A stretch of 64,000 nucleotides of DNA from Amphibalanus amphitrite. Taxonomy: Eukaryota > Arthropoda > Thecostraca > Balanomorpha > Balanidae. Both the position numbers and the translations under genes were made by a program. This document shows, in pieces, positions 4,740-63,615 of this stretch (within the stretch, counting starts at the first letter, position 1; each line of letters begins with the position of its first letter). The notes below the pieces were generated by a model. That model was given only the letters and a program-made list of their open reading frames with translations. It ran no database searches and had not been told where the DNA came from. The stretch spans positions 772,137 through 836,136 of the forward strand of contig NW_024881703.1 in the NCBI RefSeq assembly GCF_019059575.1, read 5' to 3'.

Positions 4740-5640
4740 GTGATATACTTTGAATAGTTAATTACCAGTAAAACGCCTTTTGGGCGAAGAACGAGCGAGC
4801 GAGATAGTGAGCCCTGCACGTGCGGAAGGGCGAGAGGGTACTTCCAACGGGCTTGTGCAAAGCACCCTTCTAACCGGTCGCTAGTGGTGTACCAAATTTG
4901 AGCGCAATCGGCCCAGCCACTCCTGAGATTTGGAAGCGGCATTCTGCACGTGCGCACGTGCAAATGGGGTCCAAACTGACTTTTGCACGGTACCCTACTA
5001 ACTGGTCCCCAACCGTGTACCAAATTTGAGCGCAATCGGCCCGGCCGTTCTCGAGATCTGGAAGCGCCCCCTGCACGTGCGCACGTGCAGTAGCACCCTA
5101 ACCGCAACACATGGGAATGCATTGCCTGGTGGGTGCCTACCTGTATGCCAAGTGAAGTTTCAGCGAAATCGCCCCAGTAATTACCGAGTTATTAAAATGG
5201 GAACAAATTTAACACCTCTTATTGTTGTATTTTGCACGTGCACTGGGGGTGACCCACATGCATCGAGAGTATCCTATTTTTGGTAGAAGGGATGCTGCTA
5301 CCCTACAAAAATTACCGCAAGTCAATCACCCAAGCGGCGGCTGAGATATGAGCCTCTCAAAATCACTACTTTTGCAAAACAGCTTGAACACCCTTGACTT
5401 TTCACGTGGCACGTGCCACGACGGTCACTGAGGTGTATCAAAAGTAGTCAATTACGGGGTAGAAGGGATGGGGCTACCCAGCAAAAAAAGACCGCAGGCT
5501 AATCGGTCCAGCGGTTGCTGAGATATAAGCCTCTCAAAAGCGTTACAGGCCGGGCCGGGCCGGGCCGGGCCGCTCATACTGAGATTTTTCCCTTATATTG
5601 AAAAAACTTCGCTTCGCTCGCTGCGCTCGCTCGCTCGTAA
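4740..5640. repeat. CACGTG-rich interspersed repeat, copy 1
   Basis: Repeated modules of the form 'accaaatttgagcgcaatcgg ... TGCACGTGCGCACGTGCA' occur, with the 18-bp palindrome at about 4946-4963 and 5071-5088. The left margin reads AAAACGCCTTTTGGG near 4770. The right margin has GGGCC pentamers (5550-5570), then GCTCATACTGAGATTTTTCCC and a CGCTCGCTGCGCTCGCTCG run. An inverted second copy lies at 60695-61345, with fragments at 45190-45420 and 48780-49180. Coding potential is absent. Confidence 0.6.
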
Positions 5641-11549: not shown

Positions 11550-12552
11550 GCAGCTGGAGCCGGGGACGCCTTCTGGGAGCCGCCGTCAGTCCGGGGGTCA
11601 CCCGCGAGAAGCCTCTTCAGTTCGAGCGATCAGAACCGAGGACAGCCGCCGACGCTTGTGACCACACTGAGAAGCGGAAGCACAGAGAAACTCCAGAATG
11701 TGAGTGTTGTTGAAAAGTCTGCTCAATCCCAATCCTTGATCCCCCCCTCTGCCCAGCCTGCCGTGCCGTGACGACTGCCAAACATTTTCGGTTGCCATAA
11801 AATGCACTCTCAATTGGAATTGGAAAACTTAAATTACTTTGAACTTATTGGTGCAGACACCCTAGTAGCATATTAGGATCTGAATTGTGAGGTCATGTCA
11901 GAGCCGCCAGTAAATACGTTATTGTCAGTTGGGTTGCGGGATACATCGCGATTAGGCCGGGAGCGAGAATCGAGATGCAAAAATTTGAACAAGCAGCTCA
12001 GTGTCACGAACGCTGAAATTGATGACAGGATGCGTGACAACATTGAATATGTCTTTGTCTTTGGCCAAACTGGTTCGTTCGATTTATTATAATCGGCGGT
12101 GGTCAAGTGCGATTTGAGGTTGGAATCAGGGGGAGGCACTCGCCTTGGCCGTATATGGGCCAGAATGTCTAACGATTTCCGCCATGTTGTGTATACCAAA
12201 GTCTTGAAAAGTTGATCACTGCAATCAAACTGCAAGCATGAAGCAGCAGCACTTTTGAGTAGTGTACCTCTCACTAAACTGCACCTCTGCTACCGTACAT
12301 GCAATTTATATTTCTGGTATACACAACATGGCGGAAATCGATAGACAAAAACAAGTCACCAATGCTCCTTCCAGTATATATTAGAGTTCAGTGGTTGGAA
12401 TTCGTTTGTGAAATTAATGGTGTAGATTCGTGCTTAATTCACTAAAAGTTGCATTGCGAAATTATTGGTAATATTGCTGAAGGAATTAATTGCGAAGTCG
12501 AAATCAATTATTGAACAGGTAAATACGGTTGAAAGCGAATGTAATGTTTTAA
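11550..12552. other. No gene recognised
   Basis: A GC-rich leader passes into AT-richer sequence. The words TGTGTATACC and ACACAACATGGCGG near 12188 and 12320 form a weak inverted repeat. Small frames such as 11873-12274 (minus) resemble nothing known. Confidence 0.3.
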
Positions 12553-13446
12553 CCCTCGCATGTGTAGGGGGGGGGGGGTCGGATGGACCCCCCCATGGTT
12601 TTTCGCGAATAACTCGCGTAAAAAGCGGCCGATCGCGACGAAACTTTCAGTACCCTCGCATTGATCAATTTGACACCTACCCTGAAAATTTTATGACCCT
12701 GACCCAAATGACCTTTGACCTGTGACCTCTTTTCCGAGACCATGTTTGGCCGGAATCGCGATTCGGCGTACGTCGGCTAGCATTAGCCGCGCGTTTGCAA
12801 GCTTTTCGTGGTTTCAAACGTTCAAACATGTGATTTGATGCTGCTCCCATGCATTAGGGTGGGTGTCAAGGTCACCTGAAGGTCAGGTCAGGTCATTGAC
12901 CTTTGGTGACCTCGGGTGACCTCGGTTCACTTTTTCGAGTTTTACATGTTTCTAGGCTAGTTTTTGGAGCTGAATTCGAATTTAGCAACCATTTAAACAT
13001 TTACGAAGTAGTTTTGGTGCCTTCGTAACATGTTACGAAGCTGTCAGAGGCGGTTGACACGTACTACGAATACCCGTCACGACGCCTACTGATTGACCTG
13101 ACCTGACCTGACCCGACCTGGTCTAAATGCTTAAAGACATCATCTGTGATCAAAACTGACACGATATTCGTGATCAGCACCCCGAAAAACCCCTTAGCAG
13201 CCACACTTTACGACTTTCTAATAGGTCCCGATTTTCCCGACTTTGGGTCATTGACCTGACCTGGAAGGTCAACCAATGACCTAGGACCTTAAAATTGGGT
13301 ATCATCGGCTTCCTCTCGTCACGGGCAACACGCTCGTTTTTTCCGCGAAGCTCTAGCTCGATCAGGGGCCAAACGGCAAGGGGGGGGTCCAACCGACCCC
13401 CCCCCCTACACATTAGAAGCTGGAAAACGCCGCACACATGCGAGGG
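12553..13446. mobile_element. piggyBac-like non-autonomous element (CCCTCGC subfamily), complete
   Basis: TTAA flanks both ends (12549-12552 and 13447-13450). The termini share CCCTCGCATGTGT. A hairpin of seven or more G, GTC-loop-GAC and C-run follows at the left (12568-12593), and an inverted relative of it lies at 13380-13405. The interior carries TGACCTTTGACCTGTGACCT at 12709-12728, dense AGGTCA/TGACCT at 12870-12925 and 13090-13120, and a repeated 'cgtaacatgttacgaagctgt' region (shown here as a motif position, 13025-13045). No transposase. Length 894 bp. Confidence 0.82.
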
Positions 13447-13450
13447 TTAA

Positions 13451-22462: not shown

Positions 22463-22977
22463 AGGCCTCTTGCACCAAACTACCTACCTAGGTAAATTCA
22501 GATTATACCTAGATTCTCTTGCACCAAACTACCTACCAAAAAACGCTACCGTGAAAATTTACCTAGAAATTCTACCGAGCGGCATAAGAACTTACCAATT
22601 GTTAAAGCCCGACCGGCTGTTTTCCTCTTGCACCGAAAGCCGGAAAGAAGTACTCGCGGAGGAATTTTTGACGGTTTGACGGTAAACGCGGGTTTCAAAA
22701 ATAACTAGCAAAAGCTTAGGTAAAATGATTCAATTAGTAACAATAGGCACAATACATGATAATCCACGGGTACTTTTATGTAACTAGGCATTACAAAATG
22801 TTTAGACAATGATAAATTAATGTTTTATGAGTGAATAATAAAACAATTGACCAAATGCTCCATGGGTTCACAGGGGTGCTTCTCCGTACCAAAGCGATTA
22901 ACCTCCGTAGCAGAACAGCCAGGTTGAAGACTCACTCGTTGCCATGGAAACGAAGCTTATTTGTTCCAGTAATTTAA

Positions 22978-23846
22978 CCCTCGCCCGTATAGGGGGTGTC
23001 GAACGGACCCCCCCATGGTTTTTCGCAAATAACTCGCGTAAAAAGCGGCCGATCGCGACGAAACTTTCAGTACCCTCGCGTTCATCAATTTTACACCTAC
23101 CCTGAAAATTTCATGACCCTGACCCAAATGACCTTTGACCTGTGACCTACTTTTCGAGACCATGTTTGGCCGGAATCGCGATTCGGTGTATGTCGGCTCG
23201 CATTAGCCGCGCGTTTGCAGTCTTTTCGTGGTTTCAAGCGTTCAAACATGTGATATGATGTTGCCTCCATGCATTAGGGTGGGTGTCAAGGTCACCTGAA
23301 GGTCAGGTCAGGTCATTGACCTTTGATGACCTCGGTTCACTTTTTTCGAGTTTTACATGTTTCTAGGCCAGTTTTTGGAGCTGAATTCGAATTTAGCAAC
23401 CATATGAACATTAACGAAGTAGTTTTGGTGCCTTCGTAACATGTCACGAAGCTGTCAGAGGCGGTTGCCACCTACTACGAATACCCTTACTGGTTGACCT
23501 GACCTGACCTGACCCGACCTGGCCTAAATGCATGAAGACATCGTCTGTGATCAAAACTAACATGATATTCGTGATCAGCACCCCGAAAAACCCCATAGCA
23601 GCCACACTTTACGACGTTCTAACAGGTCCCGATGTTCCCCACTTTTGGGTCATTGACCTGACCTGGAAGGTCAACCAATGACCTAGGACCTTAAAATTGG
23701 GTATCATCGGCTTCCTCTCGTCACGGGCAACACGCTCGTTTTTTCCGCGAAGCTCTAGCTCGATCAGGGGCGAAACGGCAAGGGGGGGGGTCCAACGGAC
23801 CCCCCCTATACGTTCGTGGCTGGAAAAACACCAATACGGGCGAGGG
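22978..23846. mobile_element. piggyBac-like non-autonomous element (CCCTCGC subfamily), complete
   Basis: TTAA at 22974-22977 and 23847-23850. Both ends read CCCTCGCCCGTAT, and the right arm has an extra 30-bp insert before the poly-G hairpin. TGACCTTTGACCTGTGACCT occurs at 23129-23148, with further TGACCT clusters at 23290-23335 and 23495-23525. It is very similar along its length to 12553-13446. Length 869 bp. Confidence 0.82.
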
Positions 23847-24587
23847 TTAATATCAAAATAACTTCTATCGGTATTTACGTAAATGAAAAATGATTTCATA
23901 ATACCAAAATGTATATCAGTAAAAACAATATCCATTTAATTGTTTTCTTTAGTTACTATTTGTTTGCGCCCACAAATAATTCGTGGCCGGCGCCTGAATA
24001 TGGCGGCCGCCACTGTGCTTTGCTCCGTACTAAATATCGTTTTTCTCCGGCACCAGACGATATTCCCCAGTGATTTTGGGTGGATATGTGTTTGTAAGTA
24101 CGGCCAATCGGTTCCCGGATCCAATTTCATCGTATATTGTGTCACTCATCTGTTTGGACTTTGTGTTTTCTGGCCACGGACTTGGCTAAGGACGCCCCAC
24201 GCCCGACCAGCCGGCATTCTACCGGTTCGGGGAGAGGTAGAAACCGCAACCAGCCAATCAGCGACCGGTAGCGACATTCTACTGTGACGTCATCGGACTG
24301 ACACAGCCTCAGAATGACGGGGCCGACTCACCGGATAATGGGATCCGGCGGCAGCGCAGGGGCGGGCCCAGCCACCGAAGAGGCAGGCGCGCGGGCCGCC
24401 GAATTCAGCAACGCCGCGCCGGTCCAACACAACACGAGTGGGTCGGTCCATCGCCCGATTATGACCGCCAGCTTATCACCATCACACCGGACTGGTCGCC
24501 GTCACCGACCTGTCGCGCCGCCCCTGACCGCGCCCCTGACTCGATCGGTCAGCCCATACCGGTTCGCGTATCTAACCGTGCCGCTGA

Positions 24588-29794: not shown

Positions 29795-32170
29795 TTAACC
29801 CTCGCCGGCACAGGGGGAGGGGTTGTTGCAACCCCCCCCCCTAAGTTTTTTTCGCGAATAACTCGCGTAAAAAGCGGCTGATCGCGACGTATCTTTCAGT
29901 ACCATCGCGTTCATCAATTTTACACCTACCCTAGAAATTTCATGACCCTTACCCAAATGACCTTTGAGCTGTGACCTACTTTCCGAGACCATGTTTGGCC
30001 AGAATCGCGGTTCGGCATATGCCGGCTCGCATTAGCCGCGCGTTTGCAGTCCTTTCGTGGATTCCAGCGTTCAAACATGTGATTTGATGATGCTCCCATG
30101 CATAAGGGTGGATGTCAACGTCACCTGAAGGTCAGGTCAGGTCACTGACCTATGATGACCTCGGTACACTTTTTAAGTTATGCATGTTTCTAGGCTAGCT
30201 TTTTTGGAGCTGAATTCCAATTTAACAACCATTTGAACATTTAAGAAGTAGTTCTGGTGCCTTCGTAACATGTTACAAAGCTGGGGCATTCCACGATAGA
30301 TCGTACCAGGCCCGTCACCCTCATCTCTCAGATTTTAATGAAGATCGGTCCTAGGGGTAATCATAGGCCCCAAAGACGCCTGGCAAAATATCAGACTTCT
30401 CAGATCAAAACTTTTTGAGTTATATTGCATTACATTTTTTTAACTCCGGTTTGTAACGGTGAGTTTGATGGCCTATAACTTAAGAACGGGTTAAGCAACC
30501 AACAAACGGTAAACAACACTAAGCTTGCGATGAATCAAAAATTAATATTACTTTTTAAAATTCCAAAGAAAAATTTTCATTGTTAAACAAAAACCTTAAT
30601 CTTTTTCATTTGCCTCTAATGACTTTTAGGACCAAAATTTTTCACATTTTTATTTTTTCAAAACAAACTTCATGTCATTGCAAATCGACACGCAAAAAAT
30701 TAGAAAGGTGTTCTTTCTATAAATTCCTCATTTTCCCGCAAACAAAATGGGTTTCGGAGGGGTTGATACGACCCCAGCACGCCGTTTCGCTTCTAATAGA
30801 GCTAGAGCCTCGCGGAAAGAACGAGCGTGTGTGCCGTTACAAGTCGCAGAGATTGGTACCCAAATTTTAGGTCTCAGGTTAACCGGTAGCGTCTGAGGTC
30901 AGGTCAAGTGACTGAAGTTACGGGTTCGGTTTTATAGCAAATAACTTTGCAAAAAATGGCCGCAGAGCCGCGATTTTGGCATCATTGTGTTCGCCTAGCT
31001 CAGGTGCGTCGAATGGTATACTTTTTGTTAGGGTGAGGTCAACTTAAGTAGTTGACCTCGGGTCAAGGTCAGGTTAGAGCCTCTCAGGTCACGAAGCTGG
31101 GCAAAGGGTATCATATCCCGCGAGTTGCTGGGGGGGGGGGGGGGGCGTTAAACGCCCCCACTTTTTTCGCCGGGCCATAGCATAAAAACGGCGCTGCGGC
31201 GCGCGCCAAATTTTGGGTTAGGGAATTGATTGAAGTTTATTGTGACAAAGTTTAAAAAAAATCGGTCGGAATATTTTTGAGATATCGAGGTTTTAGTGAC
31301 GTCATGATTTCTTAGTTTTCAACCAAAAACGGCATATGTTCAAAAAATCATATAAAATCACAGAATAGACATACAGACATGCCGTAAACGCCATTAAACT
31401 GCCAATACCATGAACAATCAAATGGCTATCTTCGATTATTGATTATCGCTCCGCATTTTCCAAAATGTTGAACTGAATCTTGGCAATTTCTCGTGACTAC
31501 CTCACGACCATGATACATGCATTTCTTAAATTTAACTTTTTGAGCCAAACGCGTACACATATGATAAAATGAATGTCACCATCGTGTTCTGCGCCCCAAA
31601 TCTATATTATAAATCCTAAAAAATCCGCCGCCGTCGGGGTAACTCCCAAAATGGCTTATTACGGCGCCGTCAATTGACGCAGGAGGGTGAAATTTTTGCC
31701 ACTCGTGGCTCGCGTCATTCAACAGGTCGTATTAAATTTTGGGCACGATTCGGTCGGGGGTACGCCCGTGGCGCGTGCTCACGTGGTGTGCCATAGGGTT
31801 TACACTAGAATCGGCAACAGGCTATTGCTCGCGAACGGTAAGGGCTACGGGGGTGAAATTTTCGCTGCAAGTCGGAGGCGTGCACTCATTTGTCGTATTA
31901 AATTTTCGAGGGGGTGGGTTCAGCGGTGTGCACGTGGTGGGGCCGCGACCGGCGCCGAGCAGAAGGCACGTGCTTTAGGTTCAGTTGTTCGCTTAAAAAA
32001 CTGAGTGGAAAGCAACAGAGCCGGCAGGTCATTGACCTTTGACAACGAAGGCCGACACAAGGCACCGCTCGCCAAGAGGATTCACCAGTAAATACAATTA
32101 ATTTGTTTTTGCAATATCTCAGCCGTTTCTGGGCCGATTTAGCTGAAACTTGGACTGTCGGTGGTAGTGT

Positions 32171-32932
32171 AGGGTAGGGTAGGCTAGGGTAGGGGTAGGG
32201 GTAGGGGTAGGGTAGGGTAGGGTAGGGTAGGGAAGGGTAGGGTAGGGTAGGGTAGGGTAGTGTAGTGTAGGGGTAGGGTAGGGTAGGGTAGGGTAGGGTT
32301 GGGTAGGGTAGGGTAGTGTAGGGGTAGGGTAGGGTAGGGTAGGGTAGTGTAAGGGTAGGGGTGGGGTAGGGTAGGGTAGGGTAGGGTAGGGTTGTGTAGG
32401 GGTAGGGTAGGGTAGGGTAGGGTAGGTTAGTGTAGAAGTTGGGTAGGGTAGGGTAGGGTAGGGTAGGGTAGTGTAGGAGTAGGGTAGGGTAGTGTAGGGG
32501 TAGAGTAGGGTAGGGAAGGGTAGGGTAGGGGTAGGGTAGGGTAGGGTAGGGTAGGGTGGGTAGGGTAGGGTAGGGTAGGGTAGTGTAGGGGTAGGGTAGG
32601 GTAGGGTAGGGTAGGGTAGTGTAAGGGTAGGGGTGGGGTAGGGTAGGGTAGGGTAGGGTAGGGTTGTGTAGGGGTAGGGTAGGGTAGGGTAGGGTAGGGT
32701 AGGTTAGTGTAGGAGTTGGGTAGGGTAGGGTAGGGTAGGGTAGGGTAGTGTAGGAGTAGGGTAGGGTAGTGTAGGGGTAGAGTAGGGTAGGGTAGGGTAG
32801 GGTAGGGTAGGGTAGGGTAGGGTAGGGTAGGGGTAGGGTAGGGTATGGTAGGGTATGGTAGGGTAGGTTAGGGTAGTGTAGGGGTAGGGGTAGGGTAGAG
32901 TAGGGTAGGGTAGGGTAGGGTAGGGTAGGGTT
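32171..32932. repeat. GGGTA pentanucleotide array with 272-bp higher-order period
   Basis: About 760 bp of TAGGG units with scattered variants (TAGTG, TAGGGG, TTGTG). A variant string starting GTAGTGTAAGGGTAGGGGTG occurs at 32344 and again at 32616, giving a 272-bp period over part of the array. It differs from the arthropod TTAGG and the vertebrate TTAGGG telomere repeat. The G-rich strand is the plus strand. Confidence 0.9.
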
Positions 32933-33236: not shown

Positions 33237-34259
33237 TGACGATCAAGAGCAATCCACAGTCGGCGTGGCGATTACACTCCGAGTCCGAGACCCTGACCTA
33301 TGCTTGACTGACCCCTACATGGAGCTGACACTCTTGTAGGCCTTATATGATGGATTGTGCACCGTTTTGACAGAGTTTATGACGAGAGGCGCCCATTGCG
33401 AAGTCCTGAAGTCCATGCTACTGAAAGCCCGATTTCAGGTGTTTGACCTGACCTTGACCCGACCTGTGACCTCAAAATTCATTTTTAAAGTACTCATCTG
33501 AAGCGTCTCGTCGCGTTCTTTCGTTTGCCGCCTCGTGCGTTTCGCTGCGCCTATTGGTTCTCGAGTTATCGGCTGGGGGCGTTTAACGCCCCCTCCCCCC
33601 CCCCAGCAAACGGTGGGTGGCGAAATACCTCAGCAACTGCCGGGATATCGCATATCATTCGAATCGGAAGGTCTTCCCGAGTCCATTGGTGGCTTTCCCG
33701 ACTCTCTAGCTTAATTTGATCGGGAGTTATTGACGAAAAACTCGTACGACCCTAGTGACGATACAAAAGTGAAGCATTGGACTTTGCAAGGAGTGCATGA
33801 AATCACGATACCATGTATGTACTACGAATACCTGTCACGACCCCTACTGGTTGATCTGACCTGAGCTGCCCCGACCTGGTCTAAATGCCCAATAACATCA
33901 TCTGTGATCAAAAGTAACACGATGTCCGTGATCAGCACCCCAAAAAACTATAGCAGCCACACTTAACGACTTTCTAACAGGTCCTGATTTTTCCGACCAT
34001 TGGGTCATTGACCTGACCTGGAAGGTCAACTGATGGCCTAGGACCTTAAAATTGGGTATCATCGGCTTCCTCTCGTGACGGGCAACACGCTCGTTTTTTT
34101 TTTCGCGAAGCTCTAGCTCAATCAGGGACCGAAAGCGAGGGGAAGTCGTACCCCCCTTGTGTCGTCGAAGGACGCAAAATGGCCTGTGCCGGCGAGGGAT
34201 AAGGTGCAATGTACGGAAAATTCACACGCCGCATAACTTGACCACACAGAAAATATTAA

Positions 34260-35161
34260 CCCTCGCCCGCACATGGGGGGGGGGGTTCCACCCCCCCCCC
34301 CAGGTAGTCTTTCTGCTCTGCACTCAACATTTTTAGAGATAGAAGGCTGATTTTTGGTATAGCTGCTCCTCTATCCTTTCTTTATGTCCACTGAAAATTT
34401 CAAGTTTCTGTGGTTTTTGGTTTCGGAGATATGACCTTGTTTTTCAGGTCATGTCATGACCCATATGGCCAATTCTCAACATCTTGCGTTGGCTTTGGGC
34501 CTTGTGAGCTTTTGGCACCTTGATTTCGGCCTTTTTTGCCAGTCTTACCTCCCACCTATCATGGAACATGTTGTTCGACGATGTACAGATGTCAAGGTCA
34601 AGGTCAAGGTCAACCTAGGTCATCTAATATAATTGCGCTTTAGGCAAGCGGAAATTACTTTTTGTGAAGTTTTTTGACTGCATTTTTGGTAAAAGCTTCT
34701 CAGATCATGATTTCATGTAATATAGACACATAAACAGTCGGTGCACACATCAGTATACACACAGACACACACACAGACATACAAACACATAAAATTGACC
34801 TTGACCTAACTTGACCTGAAATGACCTCAGCAGCAAAAACCTGGTCGGGTAGAGTGACAAAGAGGTTCTAGCTGGCTTGGCACCAGAAAACGGCATCGCC
34901 ATCGGTATATGATGAGCAGCGCACTTGATATTCGACGGTGACCCAAAACAGCAACATTTTTTAGTTTGACCTTACCTGGAAGGTCAATGACTGACCTGAG
35001 AAGGTAAAACTGGGTATCATTGGATTCGTCTCTTCCCAAAGAATCTTTTTGGTCTTTACTGCTAAGATCTATCTCCAACAGGAACGAAACGGCGCGGGGG
35101 GTTGGCAACCCCCTCCCCCATGTGCGTTCTAGGATGGGAAAATGGCATGTGCGGGCGAGGG
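34260..35161. mobile_element. piggyBac-like non-autonomous element, divergent CCCTCGC subfamily
   Basis: TTAA at 34256-34259 and 35162-35165. Both ends read CCCTCGCCCGCACATG. The subterminal hairpins are present (GGGGGTTGGCAACCCCC at the right, 35097-35113). The interior differs from the other copies but again holds AGGTCA/TGACCT clusters (34595-34620, 34795-34830, 34970-35010). A CA-rich microsatellite lies at 34740-34792. Length 902 bp. Confidence 0.8.
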
Positions 35162-35396
35162 TTAATGCGTCTTTAACGATAGTGATAAACGTCATGAAAA
35201 TGAAATGGAACACAAAAGTCGATTGAAATCAAATATGAGCCTACAAATTTATCGTTAGGTCAAGGTCATGACCAAATGGGAAAGGACTGACTAATCGATT
35301 TGATATGGAGAAATTAACACAACACATGCGCTTCCATCGCTGTAACACGCATTACACAAAGATTTGTGTTGAAACCATCAGCATGGAGACCCAGCG

Positions 35397-37178
35397 CACA
35401 GTGGGCCGATATGCCATTCTAGCGCGACAGGGCCTGAATCTTCGAACGGAACCCTTGGTTTTTCGCGAGTAATTCGCGTAAAAAGCGGCCGATCGCAACG
35501 AAACTTTCAGTACCCTCGCGACAACTACTTTTGCAGCTAACCTGAAAATTTCATGACTCTGACCTTAATGATCTTTGACCTGTGACCTTCTTTCGAGACC
35601 ATGTTTGGCCGGAATCGCGATTCAGCGTATGTCGGCTCGCATTAGCCGCGGGTTTGCAGTCTTTTCTTGGTTTAAAGCGTTCAAACATGGGATATTATGT
35701 TGCTCCCATGCATTAGGGTGGGTGTCAAGGTCACCAGAAGGTCAGGTAAGGTCATTGACCTTTGATGACCTTGGTTCACTTTTTCGAGTTTTACATGTTT
35801 CTAGGCTAGTTTTTGGAGCTGAATTCGAATCTAGCAACCATTTGAACATTTACTAATTACTATGTAGCTTTGGTGTCTTCGTAACATGTTACAAAGCTGT
35901 CATAGGCGGTTGCCACCTACTGCAAATACCCGGCAAAACCCTTACTGGTTGACCTGACTCCTGACCTGACCCGACCTGGCCTAAATGCATGAAGACATCA
36001 TCTATGATCGTAAATAACATTATATTCGTGATCAGCACCCAAAAAACCCATAGCAGCCACCCTTTACGACGTTCTAAAAGGTCCCGATTTTCCCGACTTT
36101 TGGGTCATTGACCTGACCTGGAAGGTCAACCGATGACCTAGGACCTTACAATTGGGTATTATCAGCTTCCTCTTGTCACGGGCAACACGCTTGTCTTTTC
36201 CGCGAAACTCTAGCTCGATCAGGGGCGGAACGGCGGGGAGTGGTCCAACGGACCCCTTCTATAAGTTCGCGGCTGGAAAAACATTACTAGGGGCGAGGGT
36301 TAAGCCAAATCTGAGGGCTTATTTCAGAAAGACCACTAAAAGAGCAATTGAATGCACTTTTCCGCGACGATGTAGCTCTATTGGTCCCCGAGGTAAGGGC
36401 CGGTTTTCGAGAAATGTTGATATATGCAACATTTTACCTTTGATGACCTCTGGTGACGTGACCTTTGACCTGACCTAGAAATGACTAATTACTCCATCTG
36501 GAATTTCGGGCGCTCTTTCGAATGACACTTATTACGTGTCGCTATGTGGCCCAAGAACCGAGTTAGAAGGGGGAGTGTTCAATCAACACCTCCCGGCCCG
36601 GCGCGTTGAACGCCGAGCACTGGTCCGGCGCGGGTTGATGTTTGGCTGCCACATCCAAAGTCGCAAAAAGTCGCAAAAAATGACTGTTGGATCTTGTAGT
36701 GCAATGAATCATTGACATGTAGTGAGATTTTCGAAGCGGTACTCTGCGGTACTTTTTTAAAAGTCTATTTGTGTGTGACATCAATTATGTGAAATTATAT
36801 TTTCGTCTTTAAATCTTTGCGGTGCCAATACATCATAACCAAGTAAGAGTTCGCCATTTTCATGTGGTTATGTGTGTTCTGCAGACCCGGAGCTATCGTT
36901 TGATGTATATAAATGTGGAATTCCTCCTCAAATTGTGATTGTTTTCGTGGATCAAAGATACGTTGTCGAAGAGTGCGGGGGACGAGTTCGGTCCAAACGA
37001 TTCCGCAGTTCGTGTTTAAGCTGAGTTTTCGCCATGAAATAGCAATTGTGTTGGAAAACAAAGACCGCAGCAATGTAGTATGATCATTTTTGAACAAATT
37101 GGTATAGGTTTCATTGCACATCCACAAAGTTCGATTTTTTACCCATGTCGTGCTAGACCTGGCGATCGGCCCAGTGTG
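35397..37178. mobile_element. Transib/ProtoRAG-like element with CACAGTG ends and 5-bp duplication
   Basis: The left end CACAGTGGGCCGATATGCC is inverted at the right as CACACTGGGCCGATCGCC, and similarity continues for about 36 bp. The 5-bp word CAGCG flanks both ends (35392-35396 and 37179-37183). Transib and ProtoRAG elements are known for CACnnTG-type termini like the V(D)J heptamer and for 5-bp, GC-rich duplications. No RAG1-like transposase is readable; two minus-strand frames (36563-36784 and 36795-37127) match nothing I know. It carries a piggyBac-like fragment at 35440-36299 and interrupts a Helitron gene. Confidence 0.55.
35440..36299. mobile_element. piggyBac-like element lacking its left terminus
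   Basis: The body is the same as 22978-23846 from the 'tttttcgcgagtaa' region onward. The right end GCGAGGG is followed by TTAA at 36300-36303. The first roughly 30 bp, including the CCCTCGC end and the poly-G run, are absent, so the left side was lost, perhaps when it joined the CACAGTG element. Confidence 0.65.
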
Positions 37179-37183
37179 CAGCG

Positions 37184-37388
37184 TCCGAAGATACCGCTGG
37201 TGGTGAGCTCCTTCAGTAGAGCCTTTAGCTTCAGGTGGAACACCCTGGCCACCAGATCGGAGCGGGACTGTGTATCCTGCCCCTTCAGCAGTGCCGCCTG
37301 GATCTCAGGCCAGTTTGGGTTGCAGGTAAACGTAACGAAGTACGTCGGTCGGCCGTACACTCGTACTATGGCCATGGCGTCTTGGTAC
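37184..37388 (-). pseudogene. Helitron Rep domain, downstream exon
   Basis: The frame starts at a CAG|G acceptor and reads Y-Q-D-A-M-A-I-V-R, then Y-F-V-T-F-T-C-N-P-N-W-P-E-I, and ends G-I-F-G-R. It continues the Helitron-like N-terminal Rep region that ends at 39937. The F-T-C-N-P-N-W-P-E-I block is diagnostic for eukaryotic Helitrons. After G-R the sequence is cut by the CACAGTG element (37178). The HUH catalytic motif and the helicase are missing from the window. Confidence 0.75.
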
Positions 37389-37491
37389 CTGAAACGTTGA
37401 GACAAAGGTAAAACACCAAAATGAGAAAATGAAATATCGCAAAAAATCCTTTTCAAAGGCTGACGAAATAAGGCTAAAATGCAGACATGTG

Positions 37492-37712
37492 CATGGATCC
37501 GAGAGCTGGATCTATGATCTCAGTGGATCTCTCGACAAAATAGAGGGGCTGGATCTATGATCCGAGTGGATCTCTCGACAAAATTCAGGGGTGGGATCTA
37601 TGATCCGAATGGATCTCTCGACAAAATTTAGGGGTCGGATCTATGATCTCTGTGGATCCAGCGGGCAAAAATTTGTGGAGGACCTATGATCTGTACGGAT
37701 CTCACGACAACA
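37492..37712. repeat. 43-bp tandem repeat, left block
   Basis: The unit beginning GGATCTATGATCCGAGTGG and continuing CTCTCGACAAAATT starts at about 37506, 37549, 37592 and 37635, exactly 43 bp apart, with a decayed fifth copy. Confidence 0.85.
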
Positions 37713-39675: not shown

Positions 39676-39936
39676 AAGCACATGTCTGCTAAAATGTGTC
39701 GGTCACTGTTAAGGTCAAAGTCAGGTCACCAAAGGTCATCGAAGGCTAAAATTTCGCCCATAATCAGGTCAAATATCGGAAACTTCCAACAAACTGGCGA
39801 ATCTGACTCAGAAGCCAACAGACCTACAGGATCTCGGAAAGCCCCCCCCCCCAAATGGCACGGGTTATCCATTGGATTAAAACAACTGGTTTCTACATAA
39901 TATCTAAACAATGGCATGTGTTCGTAGAAAGCTTAC

Positions 39937-41391
39937 CTGCGTTGGTAGTACCGGGGCCCGCCGGTGAAGGAGGCCGGCAGGATGACACGCTGACCGACGC
40001 GGTCTCCGCCGGCCAGCTCCCTTTCGGCGTCCCCCGGCAGCGCGTCCTGGAGGCGCTGGTACAGCTCGGCACGCAGGCCGGCCTGGTTCCGAGCCAGGTA
40101 CAGCAGACGCTGTGTCTCTACGCGTGCGAACGCCATGCACACGTACTCCTGAAACAGGCGTCCTGCGCGGAACAGTGAGTCATCGAGATCGGGTCGCAGC
40201 TGCAGCCGATGAGCGTAATACTGCATCAGCGTCACGCCCCTCACGTCCCCGCGCCCGTTTGCCACCGCCTGCCGTAGGTCCGGCTGCCAGCTGTCTGTGC
40301 CAAACGGCAGAAGGAGCACGAAGTGCAGTGCCTCAAACGCCCGTTGCGTCTCATTTACCGTCTGGAGGAACGGACCTTCGGCATCGGCACGGCGACGCAG
40401 CACGATGTCCTGGTGGACGGGCTCCTCGTCCATCAGCACGGCCACCTCCCGGAACCCCTCGGCGCGGTTGTACCGTCGGGGGTGCTGGTCGGCCGGGCGG
40501 GCGTCGGCACTTACCACAGTCTCTGCTGCTGAACCTCCTCCTCCGGCAGCTCGGCGGCGTGGATAAAGTCCTGCACATAGGGATTTACCTGGCGTAGAAG
40601 GGCCTGCAGCTGTTCGAGCAGCGTCAGCAGACGCGCCCGCTCTGGCTCACGGGTGCCGCGTGGAAGCGGCACGTGTCCTAAGCGCAGGACAGCCTCACTC
40701 GGCCGCCGGGTCGTCACAGTCCGGGTTGTTGACATAAATCTGGGCGAACGACCGCCACTCCCCTTATCTGGCCTGCAGTGGACCGACGCGGTGGTACAAC
40801 CTACCTTGAATGATCACTGATGGTGCATACCCACCGGAGTGCTGCCTGAATGTGCGCGCCTCCAGCGTGTCGCCCGTCCACAGTTCACGGAGCAGCGGTG
40901 GCGGGGCGGGCAGGGGATCTAGTTTACCTTCCCCTCCCCCCCCGAACAGCACAGAGTGGCCCGCTCCTCTCGCCAGAGGAGGGCGCCGCAGTGCGGACAT
41001 ACCGTGTCACGTGCCCCCGTGTCAAGCCTGGCCACGGGCTGGCGACCGGACAGCACGGAGTCGGCGTCACAGGCGGCTCGATTGGCCCGGTCGGCTCTGC
41101 GGCGCCCCTCCATGTGGCCCCTCGCGTCGGCCGCCCGTTCTGCGTCACGTATGTACCTCGTCGGGCATGTCAGCCCGCCGCTGTCGCTCACGTTCAGCGT
41201 GCGCTGCTCTGTCGGCCTCGTCGAAGGCCGCCCGCCGCTGTCGCTGTCTCTCGGCGACCGTCGCTCTTTCGGCCTCATCGAAGGCCGCCCGCCGCTGTCT
41301 TTGCCGTTCTGCGTCACGGAGAGCTTCAGCCTCCCGCCTGGCCTGGGCCATCCGTTCGCGGGGCCGGCGGACCGGAAAAGCGCTAGAAATA
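39937..41391 (-). pseudogene. Helitron Rep/helicase N-terminal region, frameshifted
   Basis: Reading down the minus strand: basic repeats E-R-Q-R-Q-R-R-A-A-F-D-E-A (41160-41390); a zinc motif C-P-H-C-G-A-L..C-C (about 40950-41020); L-P-A-P-P-P-L-L-R-E-L-W (40890); I-Q-G-R-L-Y-H-R-V-G (40790); F-A-Q-I-Y-V near 40740 after an in-frame stop; N-P-Y-V-Q-D-F (40570); Y-A-H-R-L-Q-L-R-P, then F-R-A-G-R-L-F-Q-E-Y-V (40140-40230); and R-V-I-L-P-A-S-F-T-G-G-P-R-Y (39950-39990). This is the order of the Helitron-like N domain. At least four frame changes and one stop make it a pseudogene. G+C is high. Confidence 0.78.
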
Positions 41392-53731: not shown

Positions 53732-54340
53732 CACAGTGGGGATTTTTCCGATCTAGCGCCTATTAATTCAAAAAATATTTTTTGGATTTTTGTTTATTTT
53801 TTGTGTCAGTAGGGCTAAGAAATGTCTGAATTTTTCATATATGGCATTGTTTTATCTGTATGTCCACAGCAAAACTAGGAAAAATGCGCCCAAAGTTCAC
53901 ACTCATGCGTGATTACTCAATGGGCTCAGCAAGGCCCGAAAGTATAGCTCAATTTCATTGTCCTGTCCTGTTGGTTTTAATCTTGCGAGGTCTTAAAGTT
54001 GCATATCGTCTGAAAGGCACCTTTATTAGGAATGGAATGGCAAACAGAAATTATGCCACAACCTTACTAAGGTCACAAAAATGCCCTTTACAAAAAACCC
54101 TTACAGACACCATATTGAAGGAATGGTATTCTAAATAAATGTAGGAAATCAACAATGTTCTCCACACTTTTCCACTCCGAAATATATCCTATCGAATTCG
54201 CCACTTTCTTCTGCACAAGACAACGCCTAGTTTGGCTGCCGAAACTTGCCTGAACACGGAATATTCACATTAGAGTATCTTAACACCCCACTCGAGGAGC
54301 GCTAGGGCAAACAGCACGATATAGGTATGTTCCGGACACA
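53732..54340. mobile_element. CACAGTG-ended fragment (Transib-like?)
   Basis: It starts CACAGTGGGGATTTTTCCG and continues ATCTAGCGCC, echoing the CACAGTGGG..TTCTAGCGC end at 35397. It joins directly to the broken LINE RT. The preceding five bases are CATCG. A 92-codon plus-strand frame (53860-54138) resembles nothing known. No partner end was found, so it is called from one end only. Confidence 0.35.
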
Positions 54341-54369
54341 GTGGCGGATCCAAGGGGGGGTCACATGGG
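54341..54369. mobile_element. hAT-like left end
   Basis: CAGTGGCGGATCCAAGGGGG is the start typical of hAT-like MITEs. It leads straight into the 20-bp minisatellite. A decayed inverse (GGGCTCCGCCAC) occurs at 62438-62449 at the far edge of the second minisatellite block, so the two may have bounded one element. Confidence 0.35.
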
Positions 54370-56483: not shown

Positions 56484-57840
56484 CAGGGTGTCCCGAAATT
56501 GATGTCCTCTCCCGTTCGTTACGTTTCCCGCGAGCAATACCGGTATCCCAATGGCGCTTTACCGGGACCCGACCCTGGGGCACGGTCACGTGTTTGTTGG
56601 TCACGTGACCTAGCCAGGCGAGCCGACCCAGGACCCGGCGGGGCGGCAGAGGTCATTTACCAAGAGGGTCACGAGGCGCGCGGACTGCATATCAGCCATG
56701 GCGAAGGAGTACCCTTTGTCGACTCGCTATCGCGCTGTCGGCATGGTCAACGGCGGCACGCCCCAGGTACAGGTAGCCAAAGAGCTAAGGATAGAGCCCA
56801 GGACCCTCAGACGCTGGATGGCCCTCGACCGCAAGGGAGAGGCACTGGAGAACCGCGCGGGAAGAGGGAGGAAGACAGCGATGAGCCGGGTGGCCAAAAT
56901 CGTGGTGGCGAAATCCGTTACGAAACGGCACCAGTCGACACGGAAACTGGCGCGGAAACTCAGTGCAAAAAATCATCCGGCCTCCAAGTCCGCTGTCCAT
57001 CGGTATCTGCGGCAGTGCCTCCGTCTGAAGCCGCTGAAACCGCGCGTGGAGCCCAAGCTGCACGGCAGCACAGCGACGAAAACGGCTGGACTTCGCTAAA
57101 AGTCGGATCAACTGGTCTATACAGGACTGGAGGCGAATCCTGTTCAGCGACGAGTCTCCTTTTGAGCTGTTTCATCCTCCCAACCGCCAGAACGACCGTG
57201 TTTGGGCTCAGAACAGCTCAGAAGTGCCTGTCATCGAGACCGTCAAGCAGCCGGGCAAGGTCCTGGTGTGGGGCATGATGAGTTTCCGTGGCCTGTCAGA
57301 CCTTCACATCGTGCCCCGCGGCCAAACCGTGACAGCGGACTACTACGTGGAGGAGGTGATGAAGGGAACGGCGGCATCAGCGATGAGACGACGGAAGGAG
57401 AATGGACCACCAACGGCCATCAAACTTCTGCCGGACATGTCACAGGCCATTTTCCAACAGGACGGTGCCCCGGCTCACAACGCCACCAAGACCCAGGAGT
57501 GGTGCCGGGCCAACTTCCCTGGCTTCTGGGCCAAAGGAGAATGGCCAGGTAACAGCCCGGACCTGTCGCCAATCGAGAACCTGTGGGCAATCGTCCAGGA
57601 CAGGATGGACAAGATGGCACCAGCGTCGTCCGAAACTGCCCTCATCAGGAACCTCCGATCGGCCTGGAGCAGCATCTCTGGAGAAACTCTCGACAACCTG
57701 ATGTGTGGCATGCCGGAGCGCATGCGGGCATGTGTGCGGAAGCGTGGTGGATACATCAACAAATAAATCATGGACCGGTCATTTTTTGTTTTGATGTTAT
57801 TGCACGCAATGGGAGAGGACATCAATTTCGGGACACCCTG
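56484..57840 (+). mobile_element. DD37E Tc1/mariner-family transposon, complete ends
   Basis: Perfect 30-bp TIRs start CAGGGTGTCCCGAAATTGAT (56484-56513 and 57811-57840). TA lies at both flanks (56482-56483 and 57841-57842). Length 1,357 bp. It contains one transposase gene with a single frame change. The identical TIRs indicate a fairly recent insertion compared with the other mariner-like element at 9134. Confidence 0.92.
56698..57766 (+). pseudogene. DD37E mariner-family transposase with one frameshift
   Basis: The ATG at 56698 gives a clear start 214 bp inside the left TIR. The N-terminal part has a helix-turn-helix (L-S-T-R-Y-R-A-V-G-M-V, V-A-K-E-L-R-I..R-R-W) and a second DNA-binding region (K-S-A-V-H-R-Y-L). 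The frame changes by one base near 57055-57080. After it come the catalytic acidic residues: Asp at 57149 in F-S-D-E-S, Asp at 57461 in F-Q-Q-D-G-A-P-A-H-N, and Glu at 57575 in S-P-D-L-S-P-I-E-N-L-W. There are 37 residues between the second Asp and the Glu, hence DD37E. The stop is at 57764. Apart from the frameshift all key residues are present; a sequencing error is possible. Confidence 0.88.
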
Positions 57841-58853: not shown

Positions 58854-59798
58854 CATGGGTGTAGGAGCGCCAAAAATATTGGTGAAGGATGTCACCTGAA
58901 CCTTCGGAGAAGGTGCAGGACCTTACCGCAGTGGAGGAGGGGGGGGGGTGGGGGGGGGGGGGGAATTTCGCCAACTCCTCCTGTTTTTTTTTCTCGCAAA
59001 TGTCTCACGCCATTATCATATAATTAACGCCAACTTTTCAGTACATGCCTAAAATTGAATTTTTAGGTATCCAAGCATACCTTTGGATACCTACCAAAGG
59101 TATCCACTATCCAAGCATACCTTTGGAACCTGAAGGTATGCTCCACTGCTCTTTTTTCGTGACCAAAGTCTTACAACCCTTACAACTTTCCCACGCATGG
59201 GCGCGGGAACCGGGGGGCAGTGGGGGCAGCTTGCCCCCCCCCCCAACTCTAGGGCCGTGGGGGCGGTGCCCCCACAACTTTGGGACGGAATACCGCACTT
59301 TTTTTGCAAATGTTTTTTTTTTTGTTGTTGAAAAAGCCAAGGGATGAAAAATGAGTGGCCTAAAACCGGCGAGAAAACTAAATTTGAGGGTACCCTAGGT
59401 TGATCTCTATCATGGTGTGCCCCCCCCCCAGTCTGAAAGTAGTTCCCGCGCCCCTGTTCCCACGAGTAAAAACAAGCCAATATATTTTGATATTCACGGC
59501 ATTTACTGAGACACATTTACACTTTTACCAACTTCAATACAGTTTTCGGCTTTACCTATCATTACGGAGCGAGCGAAGCGAGCGTAGTCTTTCCTTAGAT
59601 TAAAGGTAGTGTGCCAGCTTTCCTGGACCGTATGGAGTTAATGACCCAGATAAGGAGAACCGGATTTTTAGAACTTATCCATACCTTCAAAACTCATGGA
59701 AACGTCTTAAATTCTTCAAATTTTGAGTACCCCAGTGCGAAATTCGCCCCGACGGGTTGTCGGTCGTACCCCAACCACATTTCACACCACTATGAACA
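58854..59798. repeat. 0.94-kb duplicated block, copy 1
   Basis: It is nearly identical to 62673-63615, differing mainly in poly-G and poly-T lengths. It contains a GGTGAAGGAT phrase, a G-run near 58938-58962, repeated ATCCAAGCATACCTTTGGA words, and a hAT-like core with GCGCGGGAACCGGGG (59200) and AGTTCCCGCGCC (59441). Flanks differ from copy 2 on both sides. Confidence 0.85.
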
Positions 59799-62672: not shown

Positions 62673-63615
62673 CATGGGTGTAGAGGCGCCAAAAATATTG
62701 GTGAAGGATGTCACCTGAACCTTCGGAGAAGGTGCAGGACCTTACCGCAGTGGAGGAGGGGGGGGGGGGGTGGGGGGGGGGGAATTTCGCCAACTCCTCC
62801 TGTTTTTTTTTCTCGCAAATGTCTCACGCCATTATCATATAATTAACGCCAACTTTTCAGTACATGCCTAAAATTGAATTTTTAGGTATCCAAGCATACC
62901 TTTGGATACCTACCAAAGGTATCCACTATCCAAGCATACCTTTGGAACCTGAAGGTATGCTCCACTGCTCTTTTTTCGTGACCAAAGTCTTACAACCCTT
63001 ACAACTTTCCCACGCATGGGCGCGGGAACCGGGGGGCAGTGGGGGCAGCTTGCCCCCCCCCCCAACTCTAGGGCCGTGGGGGCGGTGCCCCCACAACTTT
63101 GGGACGGAATACCGCACTTTTTTTGCAAATGTTTTTTTTTGTTGTTGAAAAAGCCAAGGGATGAAAAATGAGTGGCCTAAAACCGGCGAGAAAACTAAAT
63201 TTGAGGGTACCCTAGGTTGATCTCTATCATGGTGTGCCCCCCCCCCAGTCTGAAAGTAGTTCCCGCGCCCCTGTTCCCACGAGTAAAAACAAGCCAATAT
63301 ATTTTGATATTCACGGCATTTACTGAGACACATTTACACTTTTACCAACTTCAATACAGTTTTCGGCTTTACCTATCATTACGGAGCGAGCGAAGCGAGC
63401 GTAGTCTTTCCTTAGATTAAAGGTAGTGTGCCAGCTTTCCTGGACCGTATGGAGTTAATGACCCAGATAAGGAGAACCGGATTTTTAGAACTTATCCATA
63501 CCTTCAAAACTCATGGAAACGTCTTAAATTCTTCAAATTTTGAGTACCCCAGTGCGAAATTCGCCCCGACGGGTTGTCGGTCGTACCCCAACCACATTTC
63601 ACACCACTATGAACA
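62673..63615. repeat. 0.94-kb duplicated block, copy 2
   Basis: Direct copy of 58854-59798 with the same hAT-like core. The copies diverge abruptly after TATGAACA at 63615. Confidence 0.85.

Follow-up and report, generated by a model that had tools for sequence, protein, structure and literature searches.

Positions 35397 to 37178 of a 64,000-nucleotide stretch of the Amphibalanus amphitrite genome (contig NW_024881703.1; the whole stretch is hereafter referred to as the window) open with CACAGTG, the heptamer of the V(D)J recombination signal sequence (RSS), which raises the question of whether this segment is a mobile element and, if so, to which superfamily it belongs and which enzyme could move it. 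The left end reads CACAGTGGGCCGATATGCCATTCTAGCGCGACAGGG, with CAGCG directly before it, and the right end, in reverse complement (37178-37143), reads CACACTGGGCCGATCGCCAGGTCTAGCACGACATGG, with CAGCG directly beyond, as the preliminary description had claimed; in inverted orientation, the two 36-bp ends are identical at 27 of 36 positions. Inverted 36-bp pairs of at least this identity were absent from all 12 dinucleotide shuffles of the local 5 kb, whereas the real sequence contained 14, one of which combines an exact 5-bp repeat with CAC/GTG ends. At both ends, positions 8-10 are GGC and an inner box, TCTAGCRCGA, which is not A-rich, starts 14 bp past the heptamer (Table 1). On its own, CACAGTGGG shows no enrichment within the window, with 18 matches (at most 1 mismatch) versus a mean of 14.5 expected by chance, and the case must therefore rest on copies elsewhere. 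The element has no recognized coding sequence, judging from the one long frame tested, which lies in its right part (36798-37304, minus strand) and gave no match in a Pfam search. It is 1,782 bp long in the window, and members of the family measure about 1.77-1.78 kb.

Table 1. Coordinates of the element, its parts and related features in the window.
Feature	Positions	Strand	Basis or remark
Left 5-bp target-site duplication, CAGCG	35392..35396	.	Sequence reading
Left terminal inverted repeat, 36 bp, heptamer CACAGTG at 35397-35403	35397..35432	+	Also ends full-length copies
Inner box TCTAGCGCGA, 14 bp from left heptamer	35418..35427	+	Same spacing in transposase-linked termini
Captured piece of TTAA-ended miniature element, right end GCGAGGGTTAA kept	35442..36303	+	88% to copy 22974-23850
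Remaining element interior	36304..37142	+	One long frame without Pfam match
Right terminal inverted repeat, 36 bp, heptamer CACACTG at 37172-37178	37143..37178	-	Sequence reading
Inner box TCTAGCACGA, 14 bp from right heptamer	37148..37157	-	Sequence reading
Right 5-bp target-site duplication, CAGCG	37179..37183	.	Sequence reading
Right flank: Helitron helicase-like N-domain exon up to insertion point	37179..37399	-	PF14214, E 2.3e-24
Left 610 bp of second non-autonomous Transib-type family, ending at 54341	53732..54341	+	Sequence comparison
Unoccupied copy of the repeat targeted by family copy L020, target CGTCG	5115..5640	-	Joined-flank alignment
Complete TTAA-ended miniature elements	12549-13450, 22974-23850, 34256-35165		Sequence comparison within window

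A search of the host assembly (807,550,619 bases, or 807.6 Mb, in 2,644 contigs) with the 1,782-bp element yielded at least 44 matches, with 40 of 10,191 first-look candidates scored; the scored full-length copies were 93-97% identical, and the right 875 bp used as the sole query revealed additional places. We fetched 39 loci beyond the window and 16 more from matches to the terminus, which occurs 445 times genome-wide with up to 2 mismatches, compared with 5 times for a reversed control. In the first set, including the window, 31 copies match the element from base 1 to 1782; an exact 5-bp duplication flanks 30 of them and an exact duplication of 6-9 bp none. All 13 further copies with both ends (L056-L068) carry the 5-bp duplication, bringing the combined count to 43 of 44, with L039 as the exception, or to 41 of 42 once the duplicate sites recognized by comparison of flanks (L021/L024 and L037/L038) are removed. 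The count of 44 leaves out 9 partial copies (L035 and L040-L047), of which L042 and L046 coincide with the loci already counted as L060 and L062, as well as L069-L071, the right end of which (CACACAG rather than CACACTG) was missed by the search pattern; checked later, these 3 proved to be flanked by exact duplications of CGCTG, CGACG and CAGCG, respectively. Overall, 46 of 47 copies with both ends bear an exact 5-bp duplication, and the GC-rich duplication proposed from the window copy, which was to be tested on other copies, is thus a trait of the family. One more element, on contig C1, was read from 2 loci and has CACCG on both sides. When the left 5-mer of one copy was paired with the right 5-mer of another as a control, the two agreed in 174 of 1,892 pairings. 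At locus L067 (contig C5), 2 family copies lie head to head, approximately 22 bp apart, with their left ends facing each other.

The duplicated sequences conform to a target motif, CRNYG, in 39 of 44 copies, compared with 1.46% of window positions. Among 28 unique sites, 26 display CRNYG, 20 are preceded directly by C and 23 are followed directly by G; A and G are nearly equal at position 2, and position 4 is mostly C. CRNYG is a GC-rich palindromic target of the kind looked for in Transib elements. The integration site of L020 provides an unoccupied counterpart: when its flanks are joined with a single CGTCG, a repeat in the window matches them on both sides of the junction without interruption (89% identity over 541 bp). 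Junction-spanning matches of L009, L013 and L032 were weaker or mainly one-sided and were not used as empty sites. The insertion of L062 lies within a tandem repeat of approximately 32 bp. Copies diverge from the majority sequence by 0.85-3.6%, with a median pairwise difference of 2.8%, and L018 and L022, which occupy different sites with different duplications (CGCCG and CAGCG), differ by 0.11% substitutions, a near-identity indicating a recent jump. The family is young and has multiplied recently.

About half of the element was acquired from another transposon. Element positions 46-907 correspond, at 88% identity, to positions 26-877 of the copy at 22974-23850 of a repeated TTAA-ended miniature element with the structure TTAACCCTCGC...GCGAGGGTTAA; the left end of the captured piece is absent and its right end is present. 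Other copies of the family align end to end with the window copy, which places the capture before the spread of the family. The complete miniature elements in the window we take to be piggyBac-like, from their TTAA-CCC ends. Their terminal 17-20 bp match between the 2 ends of one copy and vary between copies, and the copy found inside L069 has the same end variant as that at 12549-13450, so these variants look like subfamilies.

On its right, the window copy abuts an exon encoding a Helitron helicase-like N-domain, the start of which we placed by eye, from a splice-like site. Two such exons (39936-40646 and 37142-37519) lie on the minus strand in the right order, covering positions 1-97 and 94-170 of PF14214, and the transposon follows directly after the second one. 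The left flank is not recognizably Helitron; translation of the joined flanks lengthens the PF14214 match from profile position 170 to 174 only. An intron, decay or a rearrangement may account for this difference between the flanks. Elsewhere in the window, we observed 2 direct duplicates of 945 bp (58854-59798 and 62673-63615) with 99.4% identity, 3.8 kb apart, a Tc1/mariner-like transposase in 2 frames (56614-57763; helix-turn-helix and DDE_3 matches) and approximately 150 repetitions of the pentamer GGTAG (32163-32931).

Does the genome encode an enzyme suited to such ends? A Transib-like core sequence, checked against HzTransib (6pqn, E 2.2e-104, 357 residues), gave 113 matches in the assembly, the best with an E value of 7.4e-103. 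Many of them cover the full-length core without stop codons, and near-full-length matches are 44-49% identical to the query. We examined the 3' flanks, 0.9-1.3 kb each, downstream of 15 of the 113 matches: 3 (F4, F11 and C94) end in CACNNTG, 14 bp and WYTAGSRCG, and in the other 12 a terminus of this type was absent within that distance. The F11 terminus, CACAGTGGGGCCGTTGACCAGTTTAGGGCGA, is an endpoint shared by 5 of 5 copies, with the consensus CACAGTGGGGCCGTT(G/A)ACCAGTTT(A/C)GGGCGA, in which one copy deviates in the spacer (A for G) and one in the inner box (C for A). The 5-mers outside it are CAGTG, CACTG, CGTCG, CGCCC and CGCTG, of which CGCCC is off the target motif, and the F11 matches span residues 206-369 of the query only, that is, its C-terminal half. 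The F4 terminus, CACTATGGGTCCGATGCAGGAATTAGCACG, belongs to a transposase covering query residues 11-368 in a frame of 680 residues without stops; both of its 2 copies end at CACTATGGGTCCGAT, with CGCTG and CAGTG outside, and no 5' end was found in 1.8 kb upstream. The C94 terminus, CACAGTGTGGCCGGGAGCCGGTTTAGCGCGA, with CGGCG outside, comes from a single copy and was absent from the stretches of 2 presumed relatives, C1443 and C1036. A good local alignment at L082 (score 17) does not start with CAC and was not counted. Judged by position only, transposase matches at C22:1438247 and C2:418522 also have the 2-box pattern 431-724 bp downstream.

The 3 termini were compared without gaps to those of the family, and the scores were set against 20,000 shuffles in which the bases following the heptamer were permuted. 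F11 agrees with the left end at 22 of 31 positions, a score equalled in 4 shuffles, and with the right end at 20 of 31 (13 shuffles); for C94, the corresponding values are 21 and 19 of 31 (22 and 118 shuffles), and for F4, 14 and 18 of 31 (2,808 and 85 shuffles), its likeness to the left end being weak. All of these shuffle figures are flattering, because the termini had been picked for their likeness. The preliminary description had called for a transposase with matching ends; transposases with ends of the same type are present, whereas an exact partner was not found, there being no autonomous element with a transposase between the family's own ends among 11 longer end pairs. These pairs (L056-L066, 2.2-5.8 kb), considered as autonomous candidates, turned out to be copies of this element that contain nested insertions of other DNA.

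Taken together, the 5-bp duplication, the terminal inverted repeats starting with a CAC heptamer-like sequence, the CRNYG target and genomic Transib transposases with termini of the same type lead us to conclude, with high confidence, that the segment at 35397-37178 is a copy of a young non-autonomous Transib family, devoid of its own transposase and presumably served in trans. It resembles Hztransib of Helicoverpa zea, described in the accessible text of PMC1852546 as having inverted ends and a 5-bp GC-rich duplication, GCTCG, and other Transib elements in the same 2 features, and differs from Hztransib by the captured TTAA miniature element and the lack of a recognized transposase; the inner box TYTAGSRCGA at 14 bp was not found described in that part of the source. 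For Drosophila hopper and transib2, the accessible portion of PMC3276498 gives a modal duplication of 5 bp and the target CCANTGG, to which CRNYG is close, although the near-equal A and G at position 2 and the prevalence of C at position 4 set the present family apart.

Three other origins were weighed. That 2 unrelated CACAGTG-like sequences happen to bracket a TTAA miniature element, and that the CAGCG repeat is accidental, might have been entertained from the window alone, where an unrelated repeat makes up most of the interior and the heptamer is unenriched, but this reading is refuted by the exact ends found in dozens of copies at different sites and by the excess of terminus matches over the reversed control. 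It is also highly improbable that the family is a non-autonomous member of another cut-and-paste superfamily (hAT, CMC/Chapaev or others) with ends resembling those of Transib by coincidence. The element lacks a recognized coding sequence, and its classification rests on the ends, the duplication length and the target, which leaves room for this reading; yet duplications of other lengths are reported, within the accessible portion of PMC3276498, for hobo (hAT) and the P element (8 bp), 1360 (7 bp), and pogo and the S-element (2 bp), and Transib elements in this genome share both the target motif and the terminus.

The preliminary description had left the choice between Transib and ProtoRAG open, and only the Transib part of it stands. 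An element moved by a RAG1L-RAG2L pair, as in ProtoRAG and the protostome RAG-like (RAGL) transposons, would share the CAC start, a heptamer-like end and GC-biased 5-bp duplications, features common to RAGL and Transib as far as the available extracts of PMC7204232 and PMC8289069 go. However, protostome RAGL ends read CACTWMCAAACKTYKBB in the extract of PMC7204232, with AAA at positions 8-10, where both ends of the present element have GGC, and the transposase-linked ends of the present type belong to Transib. A mouse RAG1 core, which in a protein search detects the RAG1L chain 6b40 with an E value of 3.2e-80, gave only 3 matches in the genome at E <= 1, the best at 0.087, all within Transib loci; no RAG1L was found with this query. 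A genome search with PF12940 (RAG1) returned no match at E <= 0.001, a result we did not use as evidence of absence, since the control was silent as well and the Transib query itself reached only E 0.08, the model being blind to Transib. We regard a RAG-like origin as very improbable, by a small measure more so than an origin from another cut-and-paste superfamily, and retain the assignment to Transib.

The single end at 53732, suggested to be related, does contain CACAGTGGGG and TCTAGCGC and is of the same type, but it belongs to a separate family rather than to another copy. This second family is approximately 1.71 kb long in 2 complete copies (L072 and L073), which have near-perfect ends, CACAGTGGGGATTTTTCCGATCTAGCRC, and duplications of CAGTG and CAGCG, respectively. 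The copy at 53732 is truncated after 610 bp, and CATCG, directly to its left, also fits the target motif. Of 882 first-look candidates, 40 were scored, including that in the window, and were 99-100% identical over 607-620 bp. Judged from these sequence identities and counts, the second family is apparently younger, and may be more numerous, than the family at 35397-37178. It too holds a piece of the TTAA element (its positions 759-1569, 83% identity), and its ends mostly have a spacing of 13 and a different base after the inner box.

Genome-wide, the pattern CACNNTG-14-TYTAGSRCGA occurs 658 times, compared with 8 for the reversed control; with a spacing of 13, it occurs 15 times (2 in the control) and with a spacing of 15 once (1 in the control). 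Judged by position, many of the listed matches among the 658 belong to the family at 35397-37178 and therefore do not constitute independent evidence for a constraint on the spacing, and most ends of the second family, as read, mismatch the pattern. A terminus pattern had no match in viral contigs. The accessible text of a 2021 review (PMC8355894) describes Transib ends as symmetric, with spacers of 20-22 bp and a few cases of 12/23, and we found no description of a 14-bp arrangement in the available portions of the open-licence literature. A tentative proposal, to which we give somewhat less than even credence, is that this genome hosts a Transib clade with a fixed 2-part signal, CACNNTG-14 bp-WYTAGSRCG, shared by diverged transposase families and a recent non-autonomous family. 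If so, it would offer a live, symmetric 2-box relative of the RSS for testing the origin of the RSS spacing rules, and the 13-bp second family would represent a drift of the spacing by 1 base within the clade.

The resemblance to the RSS has clear bounds. The left heptamer is identical to CACAGTG and is followed inward by another conserved box, whereas the right heptamer is CACACTG, or CACACAG in L069-L071, and the likeness noted from the raw sequence ends at the heptamer. Neither the nonamer ACAAAAACC nor 12/23 spacing, which the preliminary description had proposed to look for, is present at the window ends: there is no A-rich nonamer, and the arrangement is a symmetric 14/14. With both the nonamer and the 12/23 rule of the RSS absent, the element adds no insight into V(D)J recombination itself.

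We envisage that a Transib transposase from other elements of the same genome recognizes both ends in trans, the heptamer and the inner box 14 bp further in serving as a putative binding signal. Cleavage would occur exactly outside CAC, probably by the chemistry known from HzTransib and RAG, and the excised element would be joined to a GC-rich target, CRNYG, at positions staggered by 5 bp, the filling of the gaps then giving rise to the 5-bp duplication. Some Transib enzyme of this genome presumably moves the family; whether that partner resembles F11 in its end specificity is perhaps an even call, and another Transib family may fit better.

Transib is a known type of transposon, to which the family adds young, repeatedly inserted copies. 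The assignment to Transib of a CACAGTG end with a 5-bp duplication, made on the raw sequence, was right and was confirmed copy by copy. In the A. amphitrite genome, the Transib system has apparently been active in recent times and includes many open transposase frames; it is useful in view of the origin of the RAG1 core, which is attributed to Transib.
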